A stretch of 54,422 bases of DNA from a virus. Shown here piece by piece: positions 1,975-51,141 of the stretch. Within the stretch, counting starts at the first letter, position 1. Every line of letters begins with the position of its first letter. The translations under genes and the position numbers were made by a program. The stretch lies in the IMG/VR virus record IMGVR_UViG_3300022745_000041, positions 1 through 54,422 of that record. One strand, written 5' to 3'. The notes beneath the pieces were generated by a model that saw nothing but the letters and a program-made list of their open reading frames with translations, was not told where the DNA came from and did no database searches.

Positions 1975-2058
1975 GGACTTTAGGCCCTTTTGTGGACTTT
2001 AGGCCGGGCCTAAAGTCTTTTCGCGATTACTTTAGGCCCTTTAGGCCCACTTTAGTCC
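1975..2058. repeat. Iteron array, putative replication origin
   Basis: At least five copies of ACTTTAGGCC are packed here in mixed orientation: 1977-1987, 1996-2005, 2007-2016 (inverted), 2029-2039 and 2039-2048 (partial). A variant ACTTTAGTCC follows at 2049-2058. Copies two and three form a near-perfect 23-bp palindrome at 1995-2017, with 11-bp arms and one central base. The array begins at the stop codon of the primase-helicase gene and abuts an AT-rich block. The repeats are seen directly; use as the origin, or as an autoregulatory operator for 1656-1844, is inferred. Confidence 0.7.
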
Positions 2059-4259
2059 TAGACCGACAACGACTGCTCTGCCAGCCGTTTGGTCCATTGG
2101 TCTCGCGAATAATACAGCACTCCGGGACGCCCACCGCTTGAGTTTTGCGGCTCAACGAACAGGCTTCCGGATTCTTGGAGCGTCGCGAGCACGTCTTTTC
2201 TTTCATTGGGTTTCAATTTCTTCAGCGGACTAGGGGAATGCAACATTTCATAACCCGTCACAATTCCCCGCTGTTCAACAAAACGTATCACCCTCAAACA
2301 ATCTCTCTCGAAATCTGACTCTGCGACATATAGGCCAACTTTCACGAGCATCATGTTCGTGAGCCAGTTAGATGTTTTGATTGCTAGGTTGACGTCGTCT
2401 AGTGTAATCGAAGGAGCATGTTGACCGCCACTCCTGGAGCACGCAAACAACAGTGCCAACTTATTGGTACGTTCTGCCGTCCGCTTCCAGATAGCGGCAC
2501 GGAAGTCGTCTTCGCCCGCCATAACCTTCTTATTGATATTGTCTCGATGTTCCGACGATCGTTCCCATGCCTCCAGCGTGTGCATCACAATCAGCGGTGT
2601 ATGTGCTTGGCCAGCCGTTCCGGCAAGGTCGCCGCTATGCGTCTTCAGGTCTAGCCAATGCGTCGCTTGGTCGAGAATGGATTGCGGCACTGATTGCTGG
2701 CTCGGTTCCTGACTGGCGACGTAGCCCCGGCCCTCGAATACCATGCACCGCCCCAGCAATCCCCCTTCGATCAACTCTCGTGTGATGTTCTCCCAAAATC
2801 CGTTCGTTGTGCATGTCCCATACAGCACAACGTTCGGGTATCGGATCGTGACTCGCTTAGTGCTGGCCAGCAATTTCGTCTTATAGAACGTTTGCGATGC
2901 CGGAAACAACGTTAGCAACTCACGCCCGACCGCCACCATGTGCGGTTGCGTCTGTGTGTTACGCATCGATACCAGCATGTGATGAATTTCGTCGATCTGA
3001 AGTAAGCAATTCGGAACTTCCGCAATGTATTTCGTGAGTCCTGAGTCTGAGCCGACATTGTCTTCGGTCAGGTCTTCTTTCTGAATCGCTGTCAGTATTT
3101 TCTTGTTCGTCATGCGTGCCGCGTCTTTACCGGCGCTGGTCTTCTCGACTCCAATCACGTAAACGTTCGGTCGTGTGTTTCGTTTATCAACAACCTTCTG
3201 ACCACAGAGTAGGCTCATCATCGCGATTGCGCCGCTCAACGCGAGTTCCGGCTGCGGGTCGTAAGCCGTGGCCAGCGTGTAATCGACGATCTCGCCAATC
3301 AGTCCTGGCGGACGGAGACAATCAGCGGGAAAGACGTTCGCGAGTTGTTTCGGATCCGGCTTGATCGGCTCAATCACTTTCGGCTGACTCAATAATCCGC
3401 TGATATCGACGTTGCTTGGCTGCTTCTCACGGTTATCAACCAGCAACCATCCTTCCGGCTTATCGCATGGTGTGGTTGCCGCTTGGTTCACTTTGCGAAC
3501 GACTTCGGATTCTGGCCAAGGAGGAAGGCAACTGAGGTTCCACTCTGTGAGATACCCCACCGCCTCCGCTTCGCTCAGATTGAATCCAGTCACGAGGCAA
3601 CGCGCCGCCCATAGCAAGCGATCGTGGCCATGCTGGCCACTAATTGAAACATCGAGCCGAGCCATATAGGAACGGATCCGTTCGTCTAACGGCGTTTGGA
3701 TTGTGTGCTGATAACTCAGTGAGCTTTTCGGAGAACTTGTTGCGGTTTGCTTTTTCTTGTGGTGTTTTGCAAATAGTCGCTGGAGTGCATCACCGGCAAC
3801 ACGTAACGCAGTCGAATCACTGATTTGGTTGCTAGTGAACGTAAAATACCGCTCATGATTGTAGACCTCGACTCCAGGCTGTTTCGATCCGTTTGTTGGC
3901 TTCTCGCCGATCTTAATTTTGTGCCATCCATTCGCTGGCCAGTCTCCTTTGCAAAAAATATGAACACCAGTTCCGCTCGGCGAAATTTCTGTGTAACTCG
4001 CGAAGTCTTCGACGATCTCTTGCGCCCAATCGGCTAACGAGCTGCCGACAATAGCCCCATCTAGGTCGATGCCGACCAATCCATCTTCTTTGCGGAACAT
4101 GAAACCGATGCGGTCGAACGCCTTCACGTCGTCAAACCGTGCCCACGTCGTCGGGTCGTTCGACCTCGCCCGCGTAATACCGTCAGCCTGAAGTGGTACT
4201 TTATTTTCATCCCAGCGCACCCAATTCGGGAGCGAGGCTAATTCTGGCGGGACGTCCAT
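2058..4259 (-). CDS. Primase-polymerase / helicase fusion (replication protein)
   Basis: A 733-residue two-domain replication protein. Residues 1-165 look like a prim-pol (AEP) domain: the metal-binding GIDLDGA motif at 63-69 and SPSGTGVH at 93-100. A helical linker (211-260, with PPWPESEVVRKVNQA) resembles the PriCT region that follows phage prim-pol domains. The C-terminal half has a Walker A-like GVEKTSAGKD at 370-379 and a Walker B-like LLQIDEI near 419-425, as in DUF3987-type primase-associated ATPases. It should prime DNA and unwind or load at the origin. No DNA polymerase gene was found, so the phage probably borrows host polymerase. The putative origin directly follows the stop codon. 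Confidence 0.85.
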   Translation of the reverse strand: MDVPPELASLPNWVRWDENKVPLQADGITRARSNDPTTWARFDDVKAFDRIGFMFRKEDGLVGIDLDGAIVGSSLADWAQEIVEDFASYTEISPSGTGVHIFCKGDWPANGWHKIKIGEKPTNGSKQPGVEVYNHERYFTFTSNQISDSTALRVAGDALQRLFAKHHKKKQTATSSPKSSLSYQHTIQTPLDERIRSYMARLDVSISGQHGHDRLLWAARCLVTGFNLSEAEAVGYLTEWNLSCLPPWPESEVVRKVNQAATTPCDKPEGWLLVDNREKQPSNVDISGLLSQPKVIEPIKPDPKQLANVFPADCLRPPGLIGEIVDYTLATAYDPQPELALSGAIAMMSLLCGQKVVDKRNTRPNVYVIGVEKTSAGKDAARMTNKKILTAIQKEDLTEDNVGSDSGLTKYIAEVPNCLLQIDEIHHMLVSMRNTQTQPHMVAVGRELLTLFPASQTFYKTKLLASTKRVTIRYPNVVLYGTCTTNGFWENITRELIEGGLLGRCMVFEGRGYVASQEPSQQSVPQSILDQATHWLDLKTHSGDLAGTAGQAHTPLIVMHTLEAWERSSEHRDNINKKVMAGEDDFRAAIWKRTAERTNKLALLFACSRSGGQHAPSITLDDVNLAIKTSNWLTNMMLVKVGLYVAESDFERDCLRVIRFVEQRGIVTGYEMLHSPSPLKKLKPNERKDVLATLQESGSLFVEPQNSSGGRPGVLYYSRDQWTKRLAEQSLSV

Positions 4260-4284
4260 GTCCGGATTCTTTCTATCGCGTTAG

Positions 4285-5760
4285 TTATTTGCTTAATGAC
4301 ATCTGCTTAAACATCCGTTCTTGCTGCTCAGTGTCACACTGAATACGTTTCGCCTTTTCAAGCACTGTCTGAATCATCGGAACTTCGATTTCCGTGACCG
4401 GAATATGAACATTGAGCGGTCGAGTTGATCCGATTCGGTTGGAGCGTTTCACGGCTTGCCAAAACTCCTCGTAACTGTCTTGCAGACCGGAGAATACTTG
4501 TCGAGTTGCGATCTGGAGATTCAGCCCAAAACCCAGGATTTTTGGTTTGCTGATCAGGACCTTGACGCGACCCGTTTTGAAGTCATCAATCAATCGCTGG
4601 CGTTCTTCAATCGGAGTGTCGCCGTTAATGGTTGCGGCATTCGGAAACACTTTTTCCATCGACTCCTGCTCGGCGTTGTAGTGGCACCAGATCAGCGTTG
4701 ATTCGTTTGGCCACGACGCCACGAGGTTCCGAATGAACTCCGGCTTCTCGGTCGCGATGTCTTCACCTTTCGACCGCCCCTTCGCGAGTTGCGACAACTT
4801 GCCACGCTGGCCAATGCCGCCGATGCCGTTGACGAACAATCCGCCCGTGATGTTTTGAACTTCCTTGCGTTGCTCGCACGTCAATTCAATGTGGTCGATG
4901 TGAATATTGATCGGTGGAATTGTTTCGCAGTTGTCTTTCCATCCGTAGACCGCTGGATTACTGAGAAACAGGCACCAGTGAGACAGATCTCGATAGAACG
5001 GCCCGATAGCGTGCGGCTTGATCTCCCAGCGGTTCTGAGTCTCACCACGGTTCACAAAGTACCTGGCAAGAAATTCGTTGACAGTCCGAAAGTGATCGCA
5101 AAACACCGCATGATTCGCATACTCAATTCGATCATTTGGCGCAGGTGTCCCGGTCAATGCGAGCTTCCATTCCAGTCCTTTGCCGAGTTCGATCAGTCTT
5201 GTGCCCCATGCCCCGTAATGGCTCTTAAGTAAACTCGATTCATCCAGCATCAGCCCGCCAAGATTTCCGACTTCAATGTCATCGCGGATCGCTTCATAGT
5301 TCGTAATCGCGATGCCTTTCTCGTTAGTCATCCACGATTGCAGCTCAGCAGCCCGAATCTGATTGATGACGAGGTCAGGATAGAAACGTTTAGCTTCTGC
5401 TAACGTCTGTGAAATGACCATCAGCGGAGACACGATCAAGACGAGCTTGTCCGGCATCGCCTGAGCCGCTGCTTGTGCGACCTCCAATAAAATCGAAGTC
5501 TTGCCGAGTCCGCATTCCGCGAAAACCGCAAACTTCCGCTTCCGGATCGCCATTGCGACGATGTCGCGCTGGTAGTCGAATAGGTAATCAGATGGCAACC
5601 ACTCACACTGACGCTCGGCATGTTGTTCGCCGCCGATCGCTTCCGCGTATTCATCGGGAACAACGGCTGTGGTCCCCTTCCATTGGTACGTCGGCACTTT
5701 TTTCAGCCGCAGGAACTTGCGATAGTCCGCCATCGCAGACGTGTTGAAATCAAGCAACAT
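4285..5760 (-). CDS. SNF2-like DEAD-box helicase
   Basis: A 491-residue SF2 ATPase of the SNF2 type common in phages. Walker A is ECGLGKTS (82-89), motif II is LMLDESSLLKS, motif III is LTGTPAPN, and a C-terminal RecA domain ends in QAVKRSNRIGSTRP (motif VI). ATG 5760 is chosen because it overlaps the stop of the DNA methylase gene at 5750-6649 (10 bp overlap) with GAGG upstream. The tight coupling with a methylase is a frequent phage arrangement. The role is probably in replication or recombination remodelling; the exact substrate is unknown. Confidence 0.88.
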   Translation of the reverse strand: MLLDFNTSAMADYRKFLRLKKVPTYQWKGTTAVVPDEYAEAIGGEQHAERQCEWLPSDYLFDYQRDIVAMAIRKRKFAVFAECGLGKTSILLEVAQAAAQAMPDKLVLIVSPLMVISQTLAEAKRFYPDLVINQIRAAELQSWMTNEKGIAITNYEAIRDDIEVGNLGGLMLDESSLLKSHYGAWGTRLIELGKGLEWKLALTGTPAPNDRIEYANHAVFCDHFRTVNEFLARYFVNRGETQNRWEIKPHAIGPFYRDLSHWCLFLSNPAVYGWKDNCETIPPINIHIDHIELTCEQRKEVQNITGGLFVNGIGGIGQRGKLSQLAKGRSKGEDIATEKPEFIRNLVASWPNESTLIWCHYNAEQESMEKVFPNAATINGDTPIEERQRLIDDFKTGRVKVLISKPKILGFGLNLQIATRQVFSGLQDSYEEFWQAVKRSNRIGSTRPLNVHIPVTEIEVPMIQTVLEKAKRIQCDTEQQERMFKQMSLSK

Positions 5761-6649
5761 GAACGGCCTCGCTTTCAGTGTCGTCAAATAGTGTTTTCGC
5801 TTTCGTCTGGTTCTCTGCGACACTGCGCAGGTTCTTTTCGGCGGTCTTCACGTACTCATCTTTGAGTTCGCACCCGTGGAAACATCTCCCGAGCTTCAAA
5901 GCCATATAACCCTCTGATCCGATGCCAGTGAACGGCGAGAACACTAGCTCGCCCGGATTGCTGTAGAGGCGAATGCACCGCTCAATCACGTCGAGCTGAA
6001 GAGGGCAGATGTGCTTCGTATCGTCCTCGCCTTTCGTGCCTCTCACGTTGAGCGTGTTTGTTTCTCGAATATCCATCCAAGCCGCTTCCGCCCAATCAAT
6101 CCACTGATTGCGACTCACTTGTCCAGACGCATCAATCGGAGTTGCGTTCTCGCCCGGCGCACGGAACTTGATGATGTAGTCAGCGATTGTTCCCCGTTGT
6201 TTCGCTCGATCTGATTCTAGTCCCGCGAACTGCAACTCTCGTGACCGTGTCCTGATCGCTTGGGCCTGTGGGTTCTTGCGAATGCACCAATCATATTCGT
6301 AGATCAACCCAGCCCGTTCTCCGATCCGAATGTTGATTCCCCTGAAGTCACACAAGCCAACTCCGCCTGATCGCTTCATCCTTGGTATCTGGCAGACGTG
6401 GACGCAAGCAACTCGCCCTGGCTTCAGCACGCGTGCCAACGCTTTGTAAAAAAACGAAAGATGCACTTTCGCTTCTGTGCCACATGTGTCTGTGTTTCCG
6501 ATGTCCGCCTCGCTTGACGTGTAGGCATATAGCGACGGGAACGGCGGAGAAAAGACCGCCATATCTACGCTGTGTGGAATCATTTCCTCCGCCATGTGCG
6601 GAATGCAGTCTCCGTGGTGAATCGACCAATTAGTAACACTCGCAACCAT
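5750..6649 (-). CDS. DNA (N4/N6-amino) methyltransferase, beta class
   Basis: A 299-residue DNA methylase. The catalytic SPPF motif (34-37) comes first and the SAM-binding FTGIGSEG motif (240-247) comes near the end, which is the beta-class order. S-P-P-F is compatible with cytosine-N4 or adenine-N6 modification. No restriction endonuclease lies beside it, so it probably acts as an orphan methylase for anti-restriction or regulation. The start at 6649 has an AAGGAAGGGG site. It is translationally coupled to the SNF2-like helicase. The target site cannot be read from sequence. Confidence 0.88.
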   Translation of the reverse strand: MVASVTNWSIHHGDCIPHMAEEMIPHSVDMAVFSPPFPSLYAYTSSEADIGNTDTCGTEAKVHLSFFYKALARVLKPGRVACVHVCQIPRMKRSGGVGLCDFRGINIRIGERAGLIYEYDWCIRKNPQAQAIRTRSRELQFAGLESDRAKQRGTIADYIIKFRAPGENATPIDASGQVSRNQWIDWAEAAWMDIRETNTLNVRGTKGEDDTKHICPLQLDVIERCIRLYSNPGELVFSPFTGIGSEGYMALKLGRCFHGCELKDEYVKTAEKNLRSVAENQTKAKTLFDDTESEAVHVA

Positions 6650-6661
6650 AATACTACCCCT

Positions 6662-6677
6662 TCCTTGAGTTAAAACG
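6662..6677. repeat. 16-bp direct repeat flanking pentapeptide cassette (copy 1)
   Basis: TCCTTGAGTTAAAACG is identical to 7365-7380. The second copy contains the stop codon and downstream leader of the helicase gene. This copy lies in the leader of the methylase gene without any coding role. Confidence 0.7.
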
Positions 6678-6708
6678 ACAAATCCACACCGCCAATAGTA
6701 TTAAACAC

Positions 6709-7356
6709 TTAATACGCCTCAGCCTCTTCCCTGGTCACGAAGAAGTGAATTCCTCCAGTGCATTCAATCATGAAATCGTCACACCACTGATCGCAATGAA
6801 CCGTTTCACCGACGCGATATTCTGTCTTGCCGTCGTGTTGACTAATTCCGACTTCGCCGCCAAAGAGTTCCAGCACCTCCACGAACTCAGCGCGACACTT
6901 CCGGCCAAATGCGTTTGATCGCTTGGCGGCCTCTGGTACTTTCAGCTTGACGATCACGCCGTCGTTGCATTTTTTCCAACCGATCACGGAACCCTCTCGC
7001 GGTGCAACGCGAGTTTTCGCGATGGCCAGCTCCACGCCTACCGCCCCGCGTAGGTTCGCATCGAGTAAGTCCGCATCGAGTAAGTTCGCCCCGCATAAGT
7101 CCGCCCCGCATAAGTCCGCCCCGCGTAAGTCCGCATCGAGTAAGTTCGCCCCGCATAAGTCCGCCCCGCGTAAGTTCGCCCCGTGTAAGTTCGCCCCGCA
7201 TAAGTCCGCCCCGCGTAAGTTCGCCCCGTGTAAGTTCGCCCCGCGTAAGTCGGCCCCGCGTAAGTCCGCATCGCATAAGTTCGCCCGAATTCCCGTCGTA
7301 ATTCCTCGCAACCACTCCAGATGTTTTTGTAACACTTCCTTCAAATCAATAACCAT
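6709..7356 (-). CDS. Pentapeptide-repeat protein with C-terminal domain
   Basis: A 215-residue protein. Residues about 23-107 are A(D/N)LxG-type pentapeptide repeats, which fold as a right-handed quadrilateral beta-helix. A C-terminal domain of roughly 100 residues ([18 protein letters not shown] onward) matches the arrangement of phage pentapeptide proteins with a DUF5758-like tail. ATG 7356 has an AAGGAGCGAG site. The repeat DNA is a 15-bp minisatellite (7020-7280). Pentapeptide proteins can mimic DNA and inhibit gyrase, but that function is not shown here. The gene is bracketed by 16-bp direct repeats, suggesting cassette insertion. Confidence 0.82.
7020..7285. repeat. 15-bp tandem minisatellite
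   Basis: Around 17 imperfect units of the type CGCATAAGTCCGCCC, in phase with the pentapeptide code of the gene on the minus strand. Unit variants (CGCGTAAG, CGTGTAAG, TCGAGTAAG) recur in blocks, pointing to expansion by unequal recombination or slippage. Confidence 0.85.
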
Positions 7357-7364
7357 AATCTCGC

Positions 7365-7380
7365 TCCTTGAGTTAAAACG
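7365..7380. repeat. 16-bp direct repeat flanking pentapeptide cassette (copy 2)
   Basis: Identical to 6662-6677. On the minus strand it covers the last Phe codon and stop of the helicase gene plus the ribosome-binding leader of the pentapeptide gene. Confidence 0.7.
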
Positions 7381-9970
7381 GAACCTCTGCCCCAAACTGC
7401 AACCCTGCGTAATCAAACCCGCTCTCGTCATACGCTAACGCGACCGCCTCCTGTTCGTCTGCCCATGTTTCCGGAACGTCGTCAAGCTCTTGCTTGATGA
7501 TCTTGTTGAACCGGCCTTGCGGCACCACCCAAATACGATTCGCAATCGCTACGGCCCCGCGTTTCCAGAAACTAATAGCGCTATCAATTCGGGATTCGTT
7601 AAGGTCTTCTTCGAGCATGGCTTTCGATCGTTCACGCCACCATTGGTCAGCATTGCGCCGAGCAAAACCATCATGGTCTAGGCATACCCATTCGCTAATT
7701 GTCTTAACTGTCAGATTGCCGCCACCTTCTGCTAACTGGCATACATAGTCTATGCGAAGCGTGTTTGGAGCGTCAGGCGCGTTGCGTTTTTCGTGACGGC
7801 TGAACGTCGCGGACTCAACCAGATACTCTGTCGGCTCGACTTGGCTTTCAAGAATTGCTGACGTCGTGTCGGCGTTGGCTTCGTGTTTTGGTTTCGGGGG
7901 ATAGGCGAATTGACATTCCGGACAAACAACAGCGCTGATCGGAATTGCTTCTCCGCAGGCGGGACATTCCTTGGTCGGCATACCGCCGCCGGTTTCCTTC
8001 TTGGGTTTCTCTGGTGGGATTCCGTATGTTGGAGAGTCTATGGGGCCGTGACGTTTAACGTTTTCGCCGAAATCTAGGACCGCACAATCTCGCTTATCAG
8101 GATGAACTCGAAAGCCTCGCCCCACGATCTGCGCGAACAATCCCGGTGATGCTGTGGCGCGGAGAACGCAAATGCAGTCGATTTGCTTCGCGTTGAATCC
8201 GGTCGTGAGAACATCAACGTTGACGAGCCATCGCAATTGGCCGCCCTTGAATCGTTGCAGTGTGTTGGATCGTTCAATTGCTAACGTTCCGCCCGTGACC
8301 AGCCCAACGTCTTCGCCCGACAAACTGGCCAGTCTATCTGCCACATGTTCGGCATGTTTCACGCCGCTACAGAACACAAGGATTGACTTTCGGCCCGTGG
8401 CCTTTTCAATGATTTCAGCAACTGCCGCGTTAACGTTGTCGTCAGTATCGAACAGCGATTCTGCTTGTCCCGCGTCGAACTCGTGAGTTCGTGCCACGAT
8501 CTTGAGACTGCTTGTGTCAAGCTCCGACGTCATCGGCTTATTGACGATCTGGCACAGATATCCTTCGCTCATCAAACGACTAACGCTGGCCGTGTAGCAA
8601 ACTTTTGTCAGCAAGTTTTCAGGTCCGCACAGTGCGCCGGTTCCCGTGCGGAATGGAGTCGCCGTGAGTCCGCCGATAACCATGTGCGGGCACAGAGATT
8701 TCATTCCTTGGAAGAATGTACGGAATCGGCCTTCGCCATCTGGCGGCAAGAGGTGGCAATTGTGAACTAACACGCCGCCAGCAAAGTAAGAAGGGTGTCC
8801 GCTGACTTGCAGATTGTAGACAATTCGCGTGCCTTCTTGTTCGTTACGCGAATCACCTTCCAGCCAAACGAACTCAACAAAGCATCCTTCTTGATGTCCT
8901 GCTGCTTCCGGTTGCCCACATGCCCCGTTCCGTCCACTTCGATTCCAATCTTCAGTTTTTGGTTCCCGATGTCGAGCTTGTAGCAGTGCGGATATCCGTC
9001 CTTCGGCTTTAATTTCGTCGGTATCGCTACCTCTAGTTGCCAGTCCGGCCCCAAGATTTCTGCCAGTAGCGTTACTGGAACGGGAGTTGGTTTTCCGTTG
9101 CCGCCTTGAATGATCGGCTTGTGCCCTTTCCGCTTTTGCGTATCGCTGATCTTTTGTCGGACTTCCGGGCGGCTCGCTGGGTTGTCGTGGAGCTTTGCGC
9201 AGCGAATCGAGCAAAACCTCGTTCGCTCCCAGGTTCTTCGTCCCTGTATTTTCATCACCGGACTTTCTGGGGATCGGCGATAAGCCTTGGGATGAAACAT
9301 CTCGCCACATTTCAGACACAGTTTCGATATCAGCGAGATATTCGCCAACGTGTAAGGAACCAGCGGCAACCCACCCTCTTGCGGTAAAGACTGGATGATT
9401 TGAGGTACATTTGAGACGCAGTCCATTGCTTAATCCAATCGTAATAGGTTGTTTTACTGAAACACTTATGGCATCAACAACACCAACACCACTAGCGTTA
9501 TATACTACATCACCTACGCGAACGAATTCAAGACATTTATTGCCTGACGGAGTTGCGATTGGTGTGTCACCCGTAAAACATTCGTCAATTAAGCAAACAT
9601 CTCGACGTCCAAACAAATGCGACTTATCGAAACAGGACTGAATGCCCGCGAATACAACATCTTGGTCGGTATGCCGCTTGCCGAGTCCTGCGGAGTACAG
9701 CCCGACATCAACGCCCGGCATCAAGGCGCGGCACTCGTCTGCGTTCTGTTGAATCAATTCCTTCGACGGCTGTAACACCATCGCACGCCCGCCGAACGCT
9801 AAGACTTTGCGGAGCACTGCCGCTATCACGAGAGACTTCCCCGCACCGGTTGGTAAAACCACACACGGCGATTCGGTACGCATACCGGCCCATAATGCGT
9901 TAGCCGCTTCCTCTTGGTAGTACCTCAGCGTGATTGCTGATTGCTCGGAGCCGAACGGTAGCGACTGCAT
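7373..9970 (-). CDS. SF2 DEAD/DEAH-box helicase interrupted by an intein
   Basis: The precursor is 865 residues. Removing the intein (residues 131-404) leaves a 591-residue helicase. Walker A PTGAGKS is near residue 41. Motif II is rebuilt as LIDECHLLPP across the splice junction. Motif [13 protein letters not shown], motif [14 protein letters not shown] and motif [10 protein letters not shown] follow. A zinc ribbon CPACG...CPEC comes late in the protein, then a DUF7-like helical tail of unknown role. Inteins prefer such active-site motifs. Splicing is needed to restore the DEAH-type box, so the unspliced protein should be inactive. ATG 9970 follows directly on the stop of the upstream small gene (TAAATG). 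Confidence 0.9.
8759..9580 (-). mobile_element. Intein in helicase motif II (274 aa)
   Basis: The intein starts at Cys1 (codon 9580-9578, [13 protein letters not shown], block A). It has a block B with [12 protein letters not shown], a block F-like [18 protein letters not shown], and block G VLVHN with penultimate His and terminal Asn (codon 8761-8759). The next extein residue is Cys, as required for the canonical splicing reaction. Between blocks B and F the intein frame reads as a polar, low-complexity stretch (residues about 80-235) and contains no LAGLIDADG motif. That region is where a second frame encodes the homing endonuclease. Confidence 0.92.
8767..9426 (-). CDS. Homing endonuclease (Zn finger / NUMOD3 / Vsr-like) nested out of frame in the intein
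   Basis: A 219-residue protein wholly inside the intein DNA, on the same strand but in another frame (intein codons about 52-271). It has CLKC (37-40) with FCSIRC (71-76), a probable zinc finger; a NUMOD3-like [19 protein letters not shown] (86-104); and a nuclease core LDIGN (151-155), IEVDGTGH (162-169), DIKKD (177-181) and GWKVIRVT (188-195). This is the pattern of the Vsr-like EDxHD family of homing endonucleases. The stop lies 6 bases before the last intein codon. The ribosome-binding site before ATG 9426 is weak (GGAT), so internal initiation or a later start is possible. Confidence 0.85.
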   Translation of the reverse strand: MDCVSNVPQIIQSLPQEGGLPLVPYTLANISLISKLCLKCGEMFHPKAYRRSPESPVMKIQGRRTWERTRFCSIRCAKLHDNPASRPEVRQKISDTQKRKGHKPIIQGGNGKPTPVPVTLLAEILGPDWQLEVAIPTKLKPKDGYPHCYKLDIGNQKLKIGIEVDGTGHVGNRKQQDIKKDALLSSFGWKVIRVTNKKARELSTICKSADTLLTLLAAC

Positions 9971-10195
9971 TTATTCAATCCTCCAAACGCTAACCGTGTT
10001 GCCGTTTGTCCGTGTCGTGAATCGTTTGCCCGCTTGCTTCAGCGATGGCTTGCGGCAACACGCCGCAAGCGTTTGCTGAACTTTGCGAACGCTTTGGTTT
10101 TCTGGAACTGTGATTGTGCGGCACTCCATAACACCCAGCGTGTTGAGTTTGTATTTATCCACTGAATACATCGGGGGAGGAATTGTTGCTTGCAT
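9971..10195 (-). CDS. Small basic hypothetical protein (74 aa)
   Basis: ATG 10195 overlaps the preceding stop (TGATG) and has GGAGGTGGAG in front. The protein is basic, with VRKVQQTLAACCRKP and a C-terminal GNTVSVWRIE that looks like a beta-strand. It resembles small phage DNA-binding or regulatory proteins, but no family is recognised. It lies directly before the intein-bearing helicase gene. Confidence 0.6.
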   Translation of the reverse strand: MQATIPPPMYSVDKYKLNTLGVMECRTITVPENQSVRKVQQTLAACCRKPSLKQAGKRFTTRTNGNTVSVWRIE

Positions 10196-10338
10196 CACTC
10201 CACCTCCTCTCTTGCTTTCGCAACGTCGTCATAGTGTTCGTCCTCGTCTTTTACTGTCGTCATCCGTTGCCGTCTGGCACTGGCCACCATTCGGCGCTGT
10301 TTGTCGTCACAGTCGAGCGTGTCGTGTTCGCGTTCCAT
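10195..10338 (-). CDS. Small charged protein (47 aa)
   Basis: Starts MEREHDTLDCDDKQRRMV, with AGGAA nine bases upstream. It consists almost wholly of charged residues (DEDEHYDDVAKAREEVE at the end). An upstream in-frame extension reads as Phe/Ser-rich and is unlikely to be translated. Its stop is coupled to the next start. No function is recognised. Confidence 0.5.
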   Translation of the reverse strand: MEREHDTLDCDDKQRRMVASARRQRMTTVKDEDEHYDDVAKAREEVE

Positions 10339-10475
10339 CGCGGGGATTCCTGAGAAAGAGGGGAAGAAAGAAAACGCAAACGACATCTCGCAACTGTGCT
10401 GCCGTCGTTGACCGGCCTAGTCGCGGAGTTGGGACATCGCCATTCGTCGCGATAGTCGTTTGCGTTTGTGAGAGA

Positions 10476-10555
10476 TTCGCAGGCAGTGCGTGGTAACAGC
10501 CTCGTCCGGTGCGAAAGGTCATAACCTACGGGGTTGGCTGCACACTGCCTGCGAA
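10476..10555 (-). ncRNA. Structured intergenic RNA element B
   Basis: A perfect 13-bp inverted repeat (10476-10488 with 10543-10555) encloses 54 bases, and the loop itself has pairing (AGGT/ACCT and AGCC/GGCT). On the transcribed strand the loop ends GGCTGTTACCACG, a core also found in the elements at 14001-14083 (GGCTGATCCCCACG) and about 12340 (AGCCATACCACGG). It lies directly 3' of the tRNA-like element. The role could be RNA processing, termination or a small RNA; none is proven. Confidence 0.55.
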
Positions 10556-10558
10556 ATT

Positions 10559-10626
10559 GAATCGGGCGGGAGTCGAACCCGCATTGGAAGCTGTCGCTTC
10601 CGTGATACCAATTACACTACCGACTC
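10559..10626 (-). tRNA. tRNA-like element with a 6-nt anticodon loop
   Basis: It has a full 7-bp acceptor stem (GAGTCGG with CCGATTC, one G-U), TA at positions 8-9, a D arm with GG in the loop, and a perfect T arm (GCGGG-TTCGACT-CCCGC). The anticodon arm is abnormal: GGAAG-CGACAG-CTTCC has only six loop bases and lacks U33. The discriminator is A and no CCA is encoded. It may be a decayed tRNA, a tRNA needing an unusual reading, or a tRNA mimic used for RNA processing. No amino acid is assigned. Confidence 0.6.
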
Positions 10627-10633
10627 ACTTGAA

Positions 10634-11125
10634 CTAAGCCGTTGCCCACGGTGCCGATTCGGCTGCCGCAACTGGTGGAACTGACTCATTGGCCAGCGTG
10701 TTGACAGGAGGCGTCGGCATTGCGGTGCCGCTGATCGCCTTCGGCTTTTTCAGGACGTTTTGCAAACCTTCATCAGTCTCGCGGATATCGATGTATCCCA
10801 TGAACGGCTTGCTGATTTGGCCACCAGGACCGTTTAGCAACTGGTTTGAGTCCGTGATCTTGCTAACACCGATCGCCTCACAGATTTTCTTGAGCAAGTT
10901 CTCGCTGATTGCCTGCGCAGTCGCGTTTTTGTTCTTGATGTTCAAGCCTTCAAAAAACGATCGGTTGGCGTACTGTCCCCCGCATACCGTGAATTTCAAG
11001 TTGAGCCGAAGCCCGTCGTTCGCTTTCGTCGGTTTCAGTTCGACGCTACTGATCACGAGTCGTTGTTCCCCTTTCGGAATAACGTCGCTCACAACCTTGC
11101 TTGTGTCAAAATCTAACGCTGCCAT
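10634..11125 (-). CDS. DUF669-family protein, probable ssDNA-binding partner
   Basis: A 163-residue protein with VSDVIPKGEQRLVISSVE and NANDGLRLNLKFTV-type strands near the start and a disordered Ala/Pro C-terminus. This fits the DUF669 family, usually encoded beside a Sak4-like ATPase in phages and thought to act in single-strand annealing or replication. An OB-like fold is plausible from the alternating strands. It follows the ATPase gene with a gap of about 57 bp and has AAAGGG upstream of ATG 11125. Confidence 0.75.
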   Translation of the reverse strand: MAALDFDTSKVVSDVIPKGEQRLVISSVELKPTKANDGLRLNLKFTVCGGQYANRSFFEGLNIKNKNATAQAISENLLKKICEAIGVSKITDSNQLLNGPGGQISKPFMGYIDIRETDEGLQNVLKKPKAISGTAMPTPPVNTLANESVPPVAAAESAPWATA

Positions 11126-11182
11126 AACGTTGCCCTTTCGGAGCTTGAGCCGGTGCCTGTGCGTCTCGACAGAGAACGTCAG

Positions 11183-12013
11183 TTACCCGGCGACTGAGAG
11201 AACGGGAGTTGTCGCGGCCTGTGGCAAATACTGGCCAATCAGGTCGTGATAGGTTGATGTCTTCAAGACCGGGATTTCTTCGGGCAAGTTTCGGATTCGA
11301 GACTTCGCTACGTAGCCCGGTTTCTTCACCGTGAACAAACTGCGATTACCTGACTCCACCGCAACGCCCCGCTGGCGGTTGAAGCCCTCGTCTTTCTGAA
11401 TAACCATCGTGTGATAGTTGAAGAAGAGAAACTCGTCACACCAATCGCGAATGAGTGCCGAAGACTTGGCCTGCAATCGCGGACTGTAGTAGTTGTAAGA
11501 CTCGCCAAGCGGGTCTTGAAACTTTTCGATCTGATAGTGCGACAACAACACGATCTCAAGATTGCGGTTGATGTTGAGCCACTCAAGCGCGTTCAGGATC
11601 GTTTGCCAGACGTCGCACATCAGCCCGACGTCTTTCCCGTAGCCACGGTCTGCGTCTGAATATCGTTGATGTACGTGGGCTTCGACCTTCTTGTGCAGCC
11701 CGTCGATCGTATCAACAACTAACGTTTGGAATGGCAACGTCTGTTGCGACGCCATTCCGCCGATCAATTCCGCGAGCGACAACCCGCTGCCGATTCGGCA
11801 ACCGTTTCGCATATCGCCTATCTCGGAAATCATCGGGAACGATTGCACTCCCTCAATATCTCGCAAACCGTCTTCGGTTGGCAGGAAAACAGGGTTTGGC
11901 CACTTCGCGCCCAGTGATGACTTGCCGATCCCTTCCGGTCCGTAAATCCCTGTTCGTCTCGCCCGCTTCTTAGCGTTCGGATTAAACAGGAGGTCGAGAA
12001 TACTTTCAGACAT
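11183..12013 (-). CDS. Sak4-like RecA-fold ATPase (AAA_24)
   Basis: A 276-residue ATPase. Walker A GPEGIGKSS is at 25-33 and a Walker B strand TLVVDTIDGLH near residue 97. This is the form seen in phage Sak4 recombinases, which help single-strand annealing or recombination with a partner SSB. It pairs here with the DUF669 gene. ATG 12013 has AAGAAGGGG upstream. There is no exonuclease gene of the lambda or RecE type nearby, so the recombination set may be this ATPase, the DUF669 protein and the Hjc-like nuclease. Confidence 0.82.
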   Translation of the reverse strand: MSESILDLLFNPNAKKRARRTGIYGPEGIGKSSLGAKWPNPVFLPTEDGLRDIEGVQSFPMISEIGDMRNGCRIGSGLSLAELIGGMASQQTLPFQTLVVDTIDGLHKKVEAHVHQRYSDADRGYGKDVGLMCDVWQTILNALEWLNINRNLEIVLLSHYQIEKFQDPLGESYNYYSPRLQAKSSALIRDWCDEFLFFNYHTMVIQKDEGFNRQRGVAVESGNRSLFTVKKPGYVAKSRIRNLPEEIPVLKTSTYHDLIGQYLPQAATTPVLSVAG

Positions 12014-41780: not shown

Positions 41781-41785
41781 ATAAG

Positions 41786-41857
41786 AACCCCGGCGGGACT
41801 CGAACCCACTTCTCCGCGTTAGTAGTGCGGTGTTCTGCCTGTTGAACTAGCTGGGAT
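41786..41857 (-). tRNA. Degenerate tRNA-like element
   Basis: It has a good T arm (GTGGG-TTCGAGT-CCCGC, one G-U), a D arm (GTTC-AACAGGCA-GAAC) and an anticodon arm CCGCA-CTACTAA-CGCGG. The acceptor stem pairs only 5 of 7. The loop CTACTAA would give anticodon ACT, which bacteria rarely use (A34), and the stem closes with an A-C mismatch. No CCA is encoded. It lies between capsid and connector genes, six bases from the next start codon. It may be a tRNA relic or a tRNA-shaped translational or processing signal. Confidence 0.45.
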
Positions 41858-49782: not shown

Positions 49783-51141
49783 TCATGCTCCTGTGTGCCA
49801 CGTGACCGGCCCTGACTGCATCACCAGCTTATTGTAAGCACCGCTTGCAGCGTCGGCTTGATCATCATGAACTCCGCTCCAACACTGCGTGAGTTCGTCT
49901 ATGAAAGCACGATTCCACGGTGCCCGCAATAGGCGGACTTGCTTTTGCTCAGTCCTGGCCTGTAGCGGACGTGCGCGAATGCTTTTCTCTTTGCTCATCG
50001 TCTCTACACGACAGCCATACTTGGCCCACCGCATGACGTTAATTTCTCCGACCGTCTTTCCAGCCCCTCCCCCTTCACGCTCAATCCATTGTTCGCATTT
50101 CAGGCCATGCTGATCGAAGTCCCGTTTCATCGTGGCTTCAATCTGAGCGTCGCGAGTTGATGCCGTCCACTGCCCGCGAACCACGTCCAGGACGTAAACA
50201 AACCCGTCTCCGCCGTCAGCCATCAACACTCCGACCGTGTAGTCACCATCTTTGCTGCTTGCCGTGTCCCAATACCGCACAACCTTCGCAATCTTGGCGG
50301 GTTCGATATCAACAATCTGGTTAATGTCGTCATGCTTGAAGAACAGCCCGCCTTCCGGAATCGGGTTCCCCATATACATGGCGGACCAAAAGTAACTACC
50401 GAGCAACGCCTTTGTTCTCAGTAGCTTATCGAATGAATGAAGCTCCGGACACAACGCCTCGCCGCGTTCGTTAATTGCTGGCAAGAGCAACTTACGAACA
50501 GGAATCCCTTGATCCTTGCAGACCTCATGCAACTGGCCAGTGAGGTCATTCACATGCCAGCGTGTCTGCATGATGATGACCGCTGAATCTTGTTGCAGTC
50601 GCGTATATGCCGACGATAGGAACTGATTCCAGACCGTCTCGCGAACCACTGCTGAACTGGCTTGCTCGTGATTGCTATATGGATCATCGAAGATGAATAG
50701 GTTTGCCCCCTTGCCTGTCGTTGACGAACTTCCACCTGTGCTCATCTCGCCGCGATGCCCCTCCACACCCCACCAGTCTGACCGCTTCAGTGATTTACTA
50801 ACACGTAGCCCTGTCGTTTCTGACATCGACGCGAAGACGTTGCGAGCTTTCGCGCCCCAGCTTGCCGCGAAGTCGCTTGCGTAACTGTTGAGGATGACCC
50901 TCCTGTCTGGCCAAAGACTCATGAGCCAAGCGGGCGTATATTTCGACATCAATTCGCTTTTGCCGTGTTGTGGCGGAACAGATACCGTCAGAATTCGGCA
51001 ATCGTCAACGCCCATGACGGTGTCAATGATTGCGTTATTGATCGCTTGCAAGTGCGGATACGGTTTCCACTGGCCACCGCTTGCGGCTTGAGCGTAACCA
51101 GCGGGCGTTGCTATTCGGCGGACGGATTCGAGGTCAAGCAT
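49783..51141 (-). CDS. Terminase large subunit (452 aa)
   Basis: Walker A PPQHGKSE (56-63), Walker B LFIFDDPY (148-155) and the RNase H-like nuclease with RYWDTASSKDGDY (289-301) and GVHDDQADA near the end. This is the typical ATPase/nuclease that cuts and pumps the DNA. It follows the putative small subunit with the 63-residue gene between. With no cos site recognised, headful packaging fits the circular assembly, but this is inferred. Confidence 0.92.
   Translation of the reverse strand: MLDLESVRRIATPAGYAQAASGGQWKPYPHLQAINNAIIDTVMGVDDCRILTVSVPPQHGKSELMSKYTPAWLMSLWPDRRVILNSYASDFAASWGAKARNVFASMSETTGLRVSKSLKRSDWWGVEGHRGEMSTGGSSSTTGKGANLFIFDDPYSNHEQASSAVVRETVWNQFLSSAYTRLQQDSAVIIMQTRWHVNDLTGQLHEVCKDQGIPVRKLLLPAINERGEALCPELHSFDKLLRTKALLGSYFWSAMYMGNPIPEGGLFFKHDDINQIVDIEPAKIAKVVRYWDTASSKDGDYTVGVLMADGGDGFVYVLDVVRGQWTASTRDAQIEATMKRDFDQHGLKCEQWIEREGGGAGKTVGEINVMRWAKYGCRVETMSKEKSIRARPLQARTEQKQVRLLRAPWNRAFIDELTQCWSGVHDDQADAASGAYNKLVMQSGPVTWHTGA

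Follow-up and report, generated by a model that had tools for sequence, protein, structure and literature searches.

Inteins usually include their endonuclease as a domain within a single polypeptide, and in the classical LAGLIDADG and HNH inteins the nuclease gene lies between two halves that bear the Hint splicing blocks. Another kind of intein-associated nuclease, Vsr-like, reportedly occurs with the split inteins of the fractured genes of Dassa 2009, where a phage DNA-metabolism gene is present as two ORFs flanking a free-standing nuclease. In ShiLan, a phage gene conceals a homing-type nuclease in another reading frame while its own frame remains open; the nuclease starts near the beginning of the insertion and stops right at its end. 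I-Bth0305I, an EDxHD homing endonuclease (PDB 3r3p), is listed as a mobile intron protein.

The element described here lies in a viral DNA stretch of 54,422 nucleotides, all of which was analysed and which we call the window. It shares the hidden frame, the open host frame and the placement of start and stop with ShiLan, whereas the ShiLan insertion has no splicing domain, is thought to be retained in the protein, encodes an HNH rather than a Vsr-like nuclease in the third frame and has no ribosome-binding site that was found. The window element instead has a bona fide Hint intein as container, with the nuclease start and stop in its splicing blocks, and its nuclease is not of the HNH type. 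With the fractured genes it has in common the nuclease superfamily, a phage DNA-metabolism host gene and the association with an intein, but its precursor is a single uninterrupted one that overlaps the nuclease; a related locus, L183, shows both features. Like classical inteins, it has Hint blocks and a nuclease gene that lies between the two halves; unlike theirs, its nuclease uses a different frame and would be made as a polypeptide of its own, and the in-frame linker is predicted to be disordered. The likeness to I-Bth0305I is in the fold of the catalytic domain; that protein is not intein-borne. We consider it highly probable that the locus is a dual-coded mobile intein, combining a splicing intein frame with an internally initiated free homing endonuclease. 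Its features, all on the minus strand, are as follows.

7373..9970 (−): ORF of 865 aa for a predicted helicase, carrying the in-frame intein (phrog_16 and RadD-like NF053632 profiles)
9581..9970 (−): N-extein, ending in ...LIDE (Walker B) (alignment)
8759..9580 (−): predicted intein of 274 aa, Cys1...Asn274 (alignment, intein profiles, AF2 Hint fold)
9356..9580 (−): predicted Hint N-terminal half, intein residues 1-75, with the TSNH block (pLDDT >95)
8759..8863 (−): predicted Hint C-terminal half, intein residues 240-274, ending in VLVHN (block alignment, AF2 model)
7373..8758 (−): C-extein, first residues CHLLPP (Cys+1), stop included (alignment)
8767..9426 (−): nested +1-frame ORF for a predicted endonuclease, 219 aa plus stop (ORF, DUF559, alignment, AF2, fold search)
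9199..9318 (−): putative zinc-finger cysteines, nuclease C37, C40, C72 and C76 (nearly invariant in alignment)
8827..8991 (−): predicted Vsr-like EDxHD core, nuclease D152, E163, D165, H169 and D177 (DUF559, alignment, fold)
9424..9426 (−): likely nuclease start ATG, within AAT GG, the Asn-Gly codons in the intein LSNG loop (conserved position within the clade)
9434..9436 (−): weak Shine-Dalgarno-like GGA; relatives have GGAG or GAGG at the site (clade comparison)
8767..8769 (−): nuclease stop TAG, from the Leu-Val codons (TTA GTT) of the intein LVHN (codon comparison)

The host ORF matched the phage helicase family phrog_16 (E 3e-74) and, below the cut-off of that profile, the RadD-like NF053632 (E 9e-69), and its product is predicted to be a RadD-like SF2 helicase related to phrog_16. 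It lies within the span of a replication module (2058-12013) with a primase, a phrog_62 helicase, a methyltransferase-like ORF, an ssDNA-binding-like gene and Sak4. Directly downstream, overlapping the end of the helicase ORF, is a pentapeptide-repeat protein gene (6709-7431 (−)), whose repeats give rise to long spurious ORFs in other frames. Elsewhere the window encodes a terminase large subunit (49783-51141 (−)), and ARAGORN called a tRNA with an odd two-base anticodon (10557-10627 (−)) and a tRNA-Ser(act) (41785-41857 (−)).

The intein is inserted in the helicase Walker B / DE^CH box (LIDE^CFTG...VLVHN^CHLL). As claimed in an earlier note on this DNA, it comprises 274 residues, running exactly from 9580 down to 8759, and its class 1-type splicing residues are complete: Cys1, the T-S-N-H block, the penultimate His, the terminal Asn and Cys+1. 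Pfam Intein_splicing matched at E 2e-8 (34.5 bits, slightly below the cut-off of 35.8), and TIGR01445 (5e-5) and TIGR01443 (8e-4) matched as well. An AlphaFold model adopts the Hint fold, with pLDDT >95 at residues 1-90 and about 250-274, and its top PDB match is the gp41-1 intein (6qaz); the linker, mostly at pLDDT <55, is predicted to be disordered at about residues 140-230. An in-frame endonuclease domain is absent from this intein and from the relatives examined, and the host frame is uninterrupted, so that the helicase is encoded by one ORF, not two. Sequence and model together point to a Hint intein of class 1 type that is predicted to splice.

About 220 codons are common to the intein and the nested ORF, which is present on the same strand with the 219 residues described before. 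Its product matched DUF559 at 31.1 bits (cut-off 20.6), with a weak match to MTES_1575, in Pfam. The AF2 model has a pLDDT of 88, with low confidence in the first 30 residues, and Foldseek placed the I-Bth0305I catalytic domain first (3r3p, probability 0.99, E 0.015), a match that taken alone gives moderate support. In a profile search against solved structures, 3hrl (8e-10) and 3r3p (0.005) were recovered. The four zinc-finger cysteines are conserved in 90% or more of alignment rows and the EDxHD residues are near-invariant. We therefore agree with the Vsr-like assignment made in the note, borne out by both family and structure matches, and with its zinc finger, predicted here from four near-invariant cysteines and the model. 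The third label, a NUMOD3-like motif, had been given by eye; a Pfam search for NUMOD3 found no match in the window nuclease or ten relatives, and we drop it. The nested ORF is thus predicted to encode a zinc-finger/DUF559 endonuclease with a Vsr-like EDxHD core, that is, a PD-(D/E)XK core of the Vsr type.

The same arrangement recurs widely. In Vibrio, Corynebacterium and Pseudomonas phage isolates, relatives sit under genes annotated as helicase or hypothetical; searches of phages for free-standing relatives with three nuclease queries gave 40 records each, and in all 8 fetched the nuclease was nested, +1 to the helicase, with no free-standing relative among them. Viral contigs yielded 317 stretches encoding nuclease relatives, the best 80 of which were all nested in +1. 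Among 21 bacterial-genome matches, 11 were nested in +1 and the other ten were weak, ordinary DUF559 proteins, not nested. Every strong nuclease relative (99/99) lies in +1 inside an open container frame. Single-sequence search of the viral contigs with the window nuclease returned no matches, and searches of bacterial genomes in one family and one order returned nothing beyond the two seed genomes. As these searches started from the nuclease, a second was seeded by the intein N-block only. It added 79 loci, some on contigs already found by the nuclease searches, of which 78 have a nuclease in +1 at >30 bits; these are nested except for the fractured L183, and L160 retains only a remnant. As the profile was built from nested members, this shows tight association rather than the absence of other states.

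The combined set holds 176 loci with 138 distinct nucleases, falling into 106 clusters at 70% identity. The nuclease frame is exactly +1 relative to the intein at related loci, is wholly covered by an open intein frame at 175 of the 176 (the exception being L183) and is retained down to about 30% identity. The host genes are SF2 helicases, SNF2 proteins, terminase-like genes and, in three bacterial MAGs, DnaX; for L181 and L183 the terminase name was given by eye, with no terminase match in Pfam. The majority of loci are known from MAGs or metagenomic virus contigs, and isolates are represented by the Vibrio, Corynebacterium and Pseudomonas phages and one plasmid, RHOApe of Rhodovastum atsumiense, where the +1 nuclease is nested in an SNF2 gene and the intein ends in HN^S (L205). 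On a side note, L058, L060 and L061 carry a 1390-aa ORF with helicase and N6_N4 methylase domains and a second Hint segment near residue 989. By sequence comparison, dual coding appears conserved in over a hundred divergent viruses. The suggestion that an out-of-frame nest is new holds in so far as ShiLan was the only comparable published case found in full-text searches of open-licence papers, an earlier report elsewhere being possible; however, the nest is no one-off: its lineage is widespread and occupies several host genes.

The signals that would delimit the nuclease gene are built from intein codons. In the clade of the window, a conserved Hint loop supplies the start ATG through its [ND]-G codons, frequently preceded at short distance by GGAG or GAGG, and the Asn or Asp codon at this site ends in T at 45 of 50 loci, compared with 238 of 469 in exteins (p 2e-8). 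The commonest nuclease stop is a TAG made from the Leu-Val of LVHN, and TTA or CTA encodes that leucine at 62 of 97 loci versus 20% of extein leucines (p 3e-20). The codon patterns suggest that start, often with a Shine-Dalgarno sequence, and stop lie within codons of conserved splicing blocks. A later start is possible, given the weak Shine-Dalgarno of the window and the low confidence of the nuclease model over its first 30 residues. Programmed +1 frameshifting could instead yield the nuclease as an intein-nuclease fusion, which would fit a nuclease that is always in +1, with the Hint-N half providing the N-terminus; however, Shine-Dalgarno-like sites with a start codon are enriched upstream of the zinc finger (98/127 loci of all clades, against 42/126 in the control) and the ATG of the [ND]G loop is conserved, and we hold this mode of expression to be unlikely, a live but minor rival to internal initiation.

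To quantify how readily one frame leaves another open, the residues of one protein were fixed and codons drawn from the host gene. With the window intein fixed, the nuclease frame stayed open in 0.7% of trials, and with the nuclease fixed, the intein frame stayed open in 0 of 300, so that the double open frame is more than chance. Across loci, the respective probabilities were 0.037 (mean) and 0.0015, and the third frame was open at 0 of 128 loci. Differences in 26 independent pairs were then assigned to intein-frame codon positions 1/2/3. Exteins (.34/.24/.58) and Hint-N (.29/.23/.52) had a normal third-position excess; in the linker overlap (.42/.22/.21) the excess shifted to position 1 of the intein codons, equivalent to position 3 of the nuclease, and in the Hint-C overlap (.19/.16/.21) all three positions were low. 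These patterns indicate that both frames are under constraint; together with the Vsr-like match and the retention of the second frame in relatives, they mean that the reading of the earlier note survived those of its refuting conditions that can be computed. A nuclease ORF that is open by chance or as a relic, beside an intein functional alone, draws on the occasional openness of +1 given intein residues (the 0.037 above); it is contradicted by conservation in the middle of the element, higher in the nuclease than in the intein frame, by codon periodicity that tracks the nuclease and by the near-invariant zinc and EDxHD residues. We rejected this reading for the window as very improbable, and from sequence the nested nuclease appears to be no chance ORF.

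Equally improbable, and rejected for the window as the host frame runs uninterrupted there and through the intein at 175/176 loci, is a truly fractured host gene with a two-piece intein acting in trans and a free-standing nuclease as in the Dassa 2009 genes, a form that L183 exactly displays.

In L183, a terminase-like locus, the intein halves are separate ORFs with the nuclease between them. The host frame between the halves is filled with stops (31), which makes this locus a natural control for the frame constraint. Two inteins are visible by eye in L183 1479-5777, the fractured one and an apparently in-frame LAGLIDADG-type one. In the tree, L183 sits on a long branch beside the outgroup, and as this placement is unsafe we claim no direction of change: fractured split-intein genes and the overprinted class may be linked through a readable intein frame that was either lost or gained.

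Filled and empty alleles of the dual-coded intein are found in closely related phages. The element is present in Corynebacterium phage phi673 and missing from phi674 by an exact 906-bp absence, with flanks that align gap-free over 1895 nt at 99% identity (19 mismatches). Seven of the 19 mismatches lie in the 80 nt immediately 3' of the site and include the Val-to-Cys switch at the +1 codon; such a cluster is expected for co-conversion. The 2018 genome paper on these phages records the intein in one and not in the other, and a term search in it turned up nothing on a nuclease nested in that helicase. Empty alleles also occur in Vibrio phages, and intein-free alleles with seamless host sequence exist among relatives; near the window none was found, the spliced window helicase as query matching only 4 distant loci. 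L160 and L177 are deletion forms, mini-inteins with nuclease remnants. At the same DE^CHH site, Vibrio phages K459, K453 and 268E42.1 (L197, L199 and L200) have a 150-aa mini-intein with no nuclease trace, which may be a different intein. Distances of the nuclease correlated with those of Hint-N (Spearman 0.49) more than Hint-N with extein distances (0.19), in line with joint movement of intein and nuclease.

In the dual-coded model, the helicase frame would yield a Hint splicing domain of class 1 type with a long disordered linker, and the intein would excise itself to restore the helicase DECH motif. The +1 frame, from an internal start in Hint-N codons to the stop in LVHN codons, would yield a free zinc-finger/Vsr-like (EDxHD) endonuclease, and the intein linker would be a by-product translation of its gene. 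The endonuclease would cut intein-free alleles of the host gene, into which repair would copy the intein (homing), and it probably spreads the intein in this way. Splicing, internal initiation and cleavage of the empty site are steps that we infer.

We think it likely that these loci represent a previously unreported class of homing element with a wide distribution, where one strand encodes both a self-splicing intein and, overprinted on it, a separate homing endonuclease, with the ribosome-binding site, start and stop of the nuclease inside catalytic motifs, so that neither is easily lost without harm to the other. As two proteins share about 220 codons, retention of the nuclease may be coupled to splicing, and overprinting may counter the decay that homing endonucleases usually undergo and may let a nuclease be expressed from within phage replication genes with no need for an additional gene. 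The homologues of the element number more than a hundred, and it offers a natural large overlapping-gene pair for the study of dual coding. How split inteins arose can be tested with the fractured and mini forms, and homing itself directly with the phi673/phi674 pair in Corynebacterium glutamicum.
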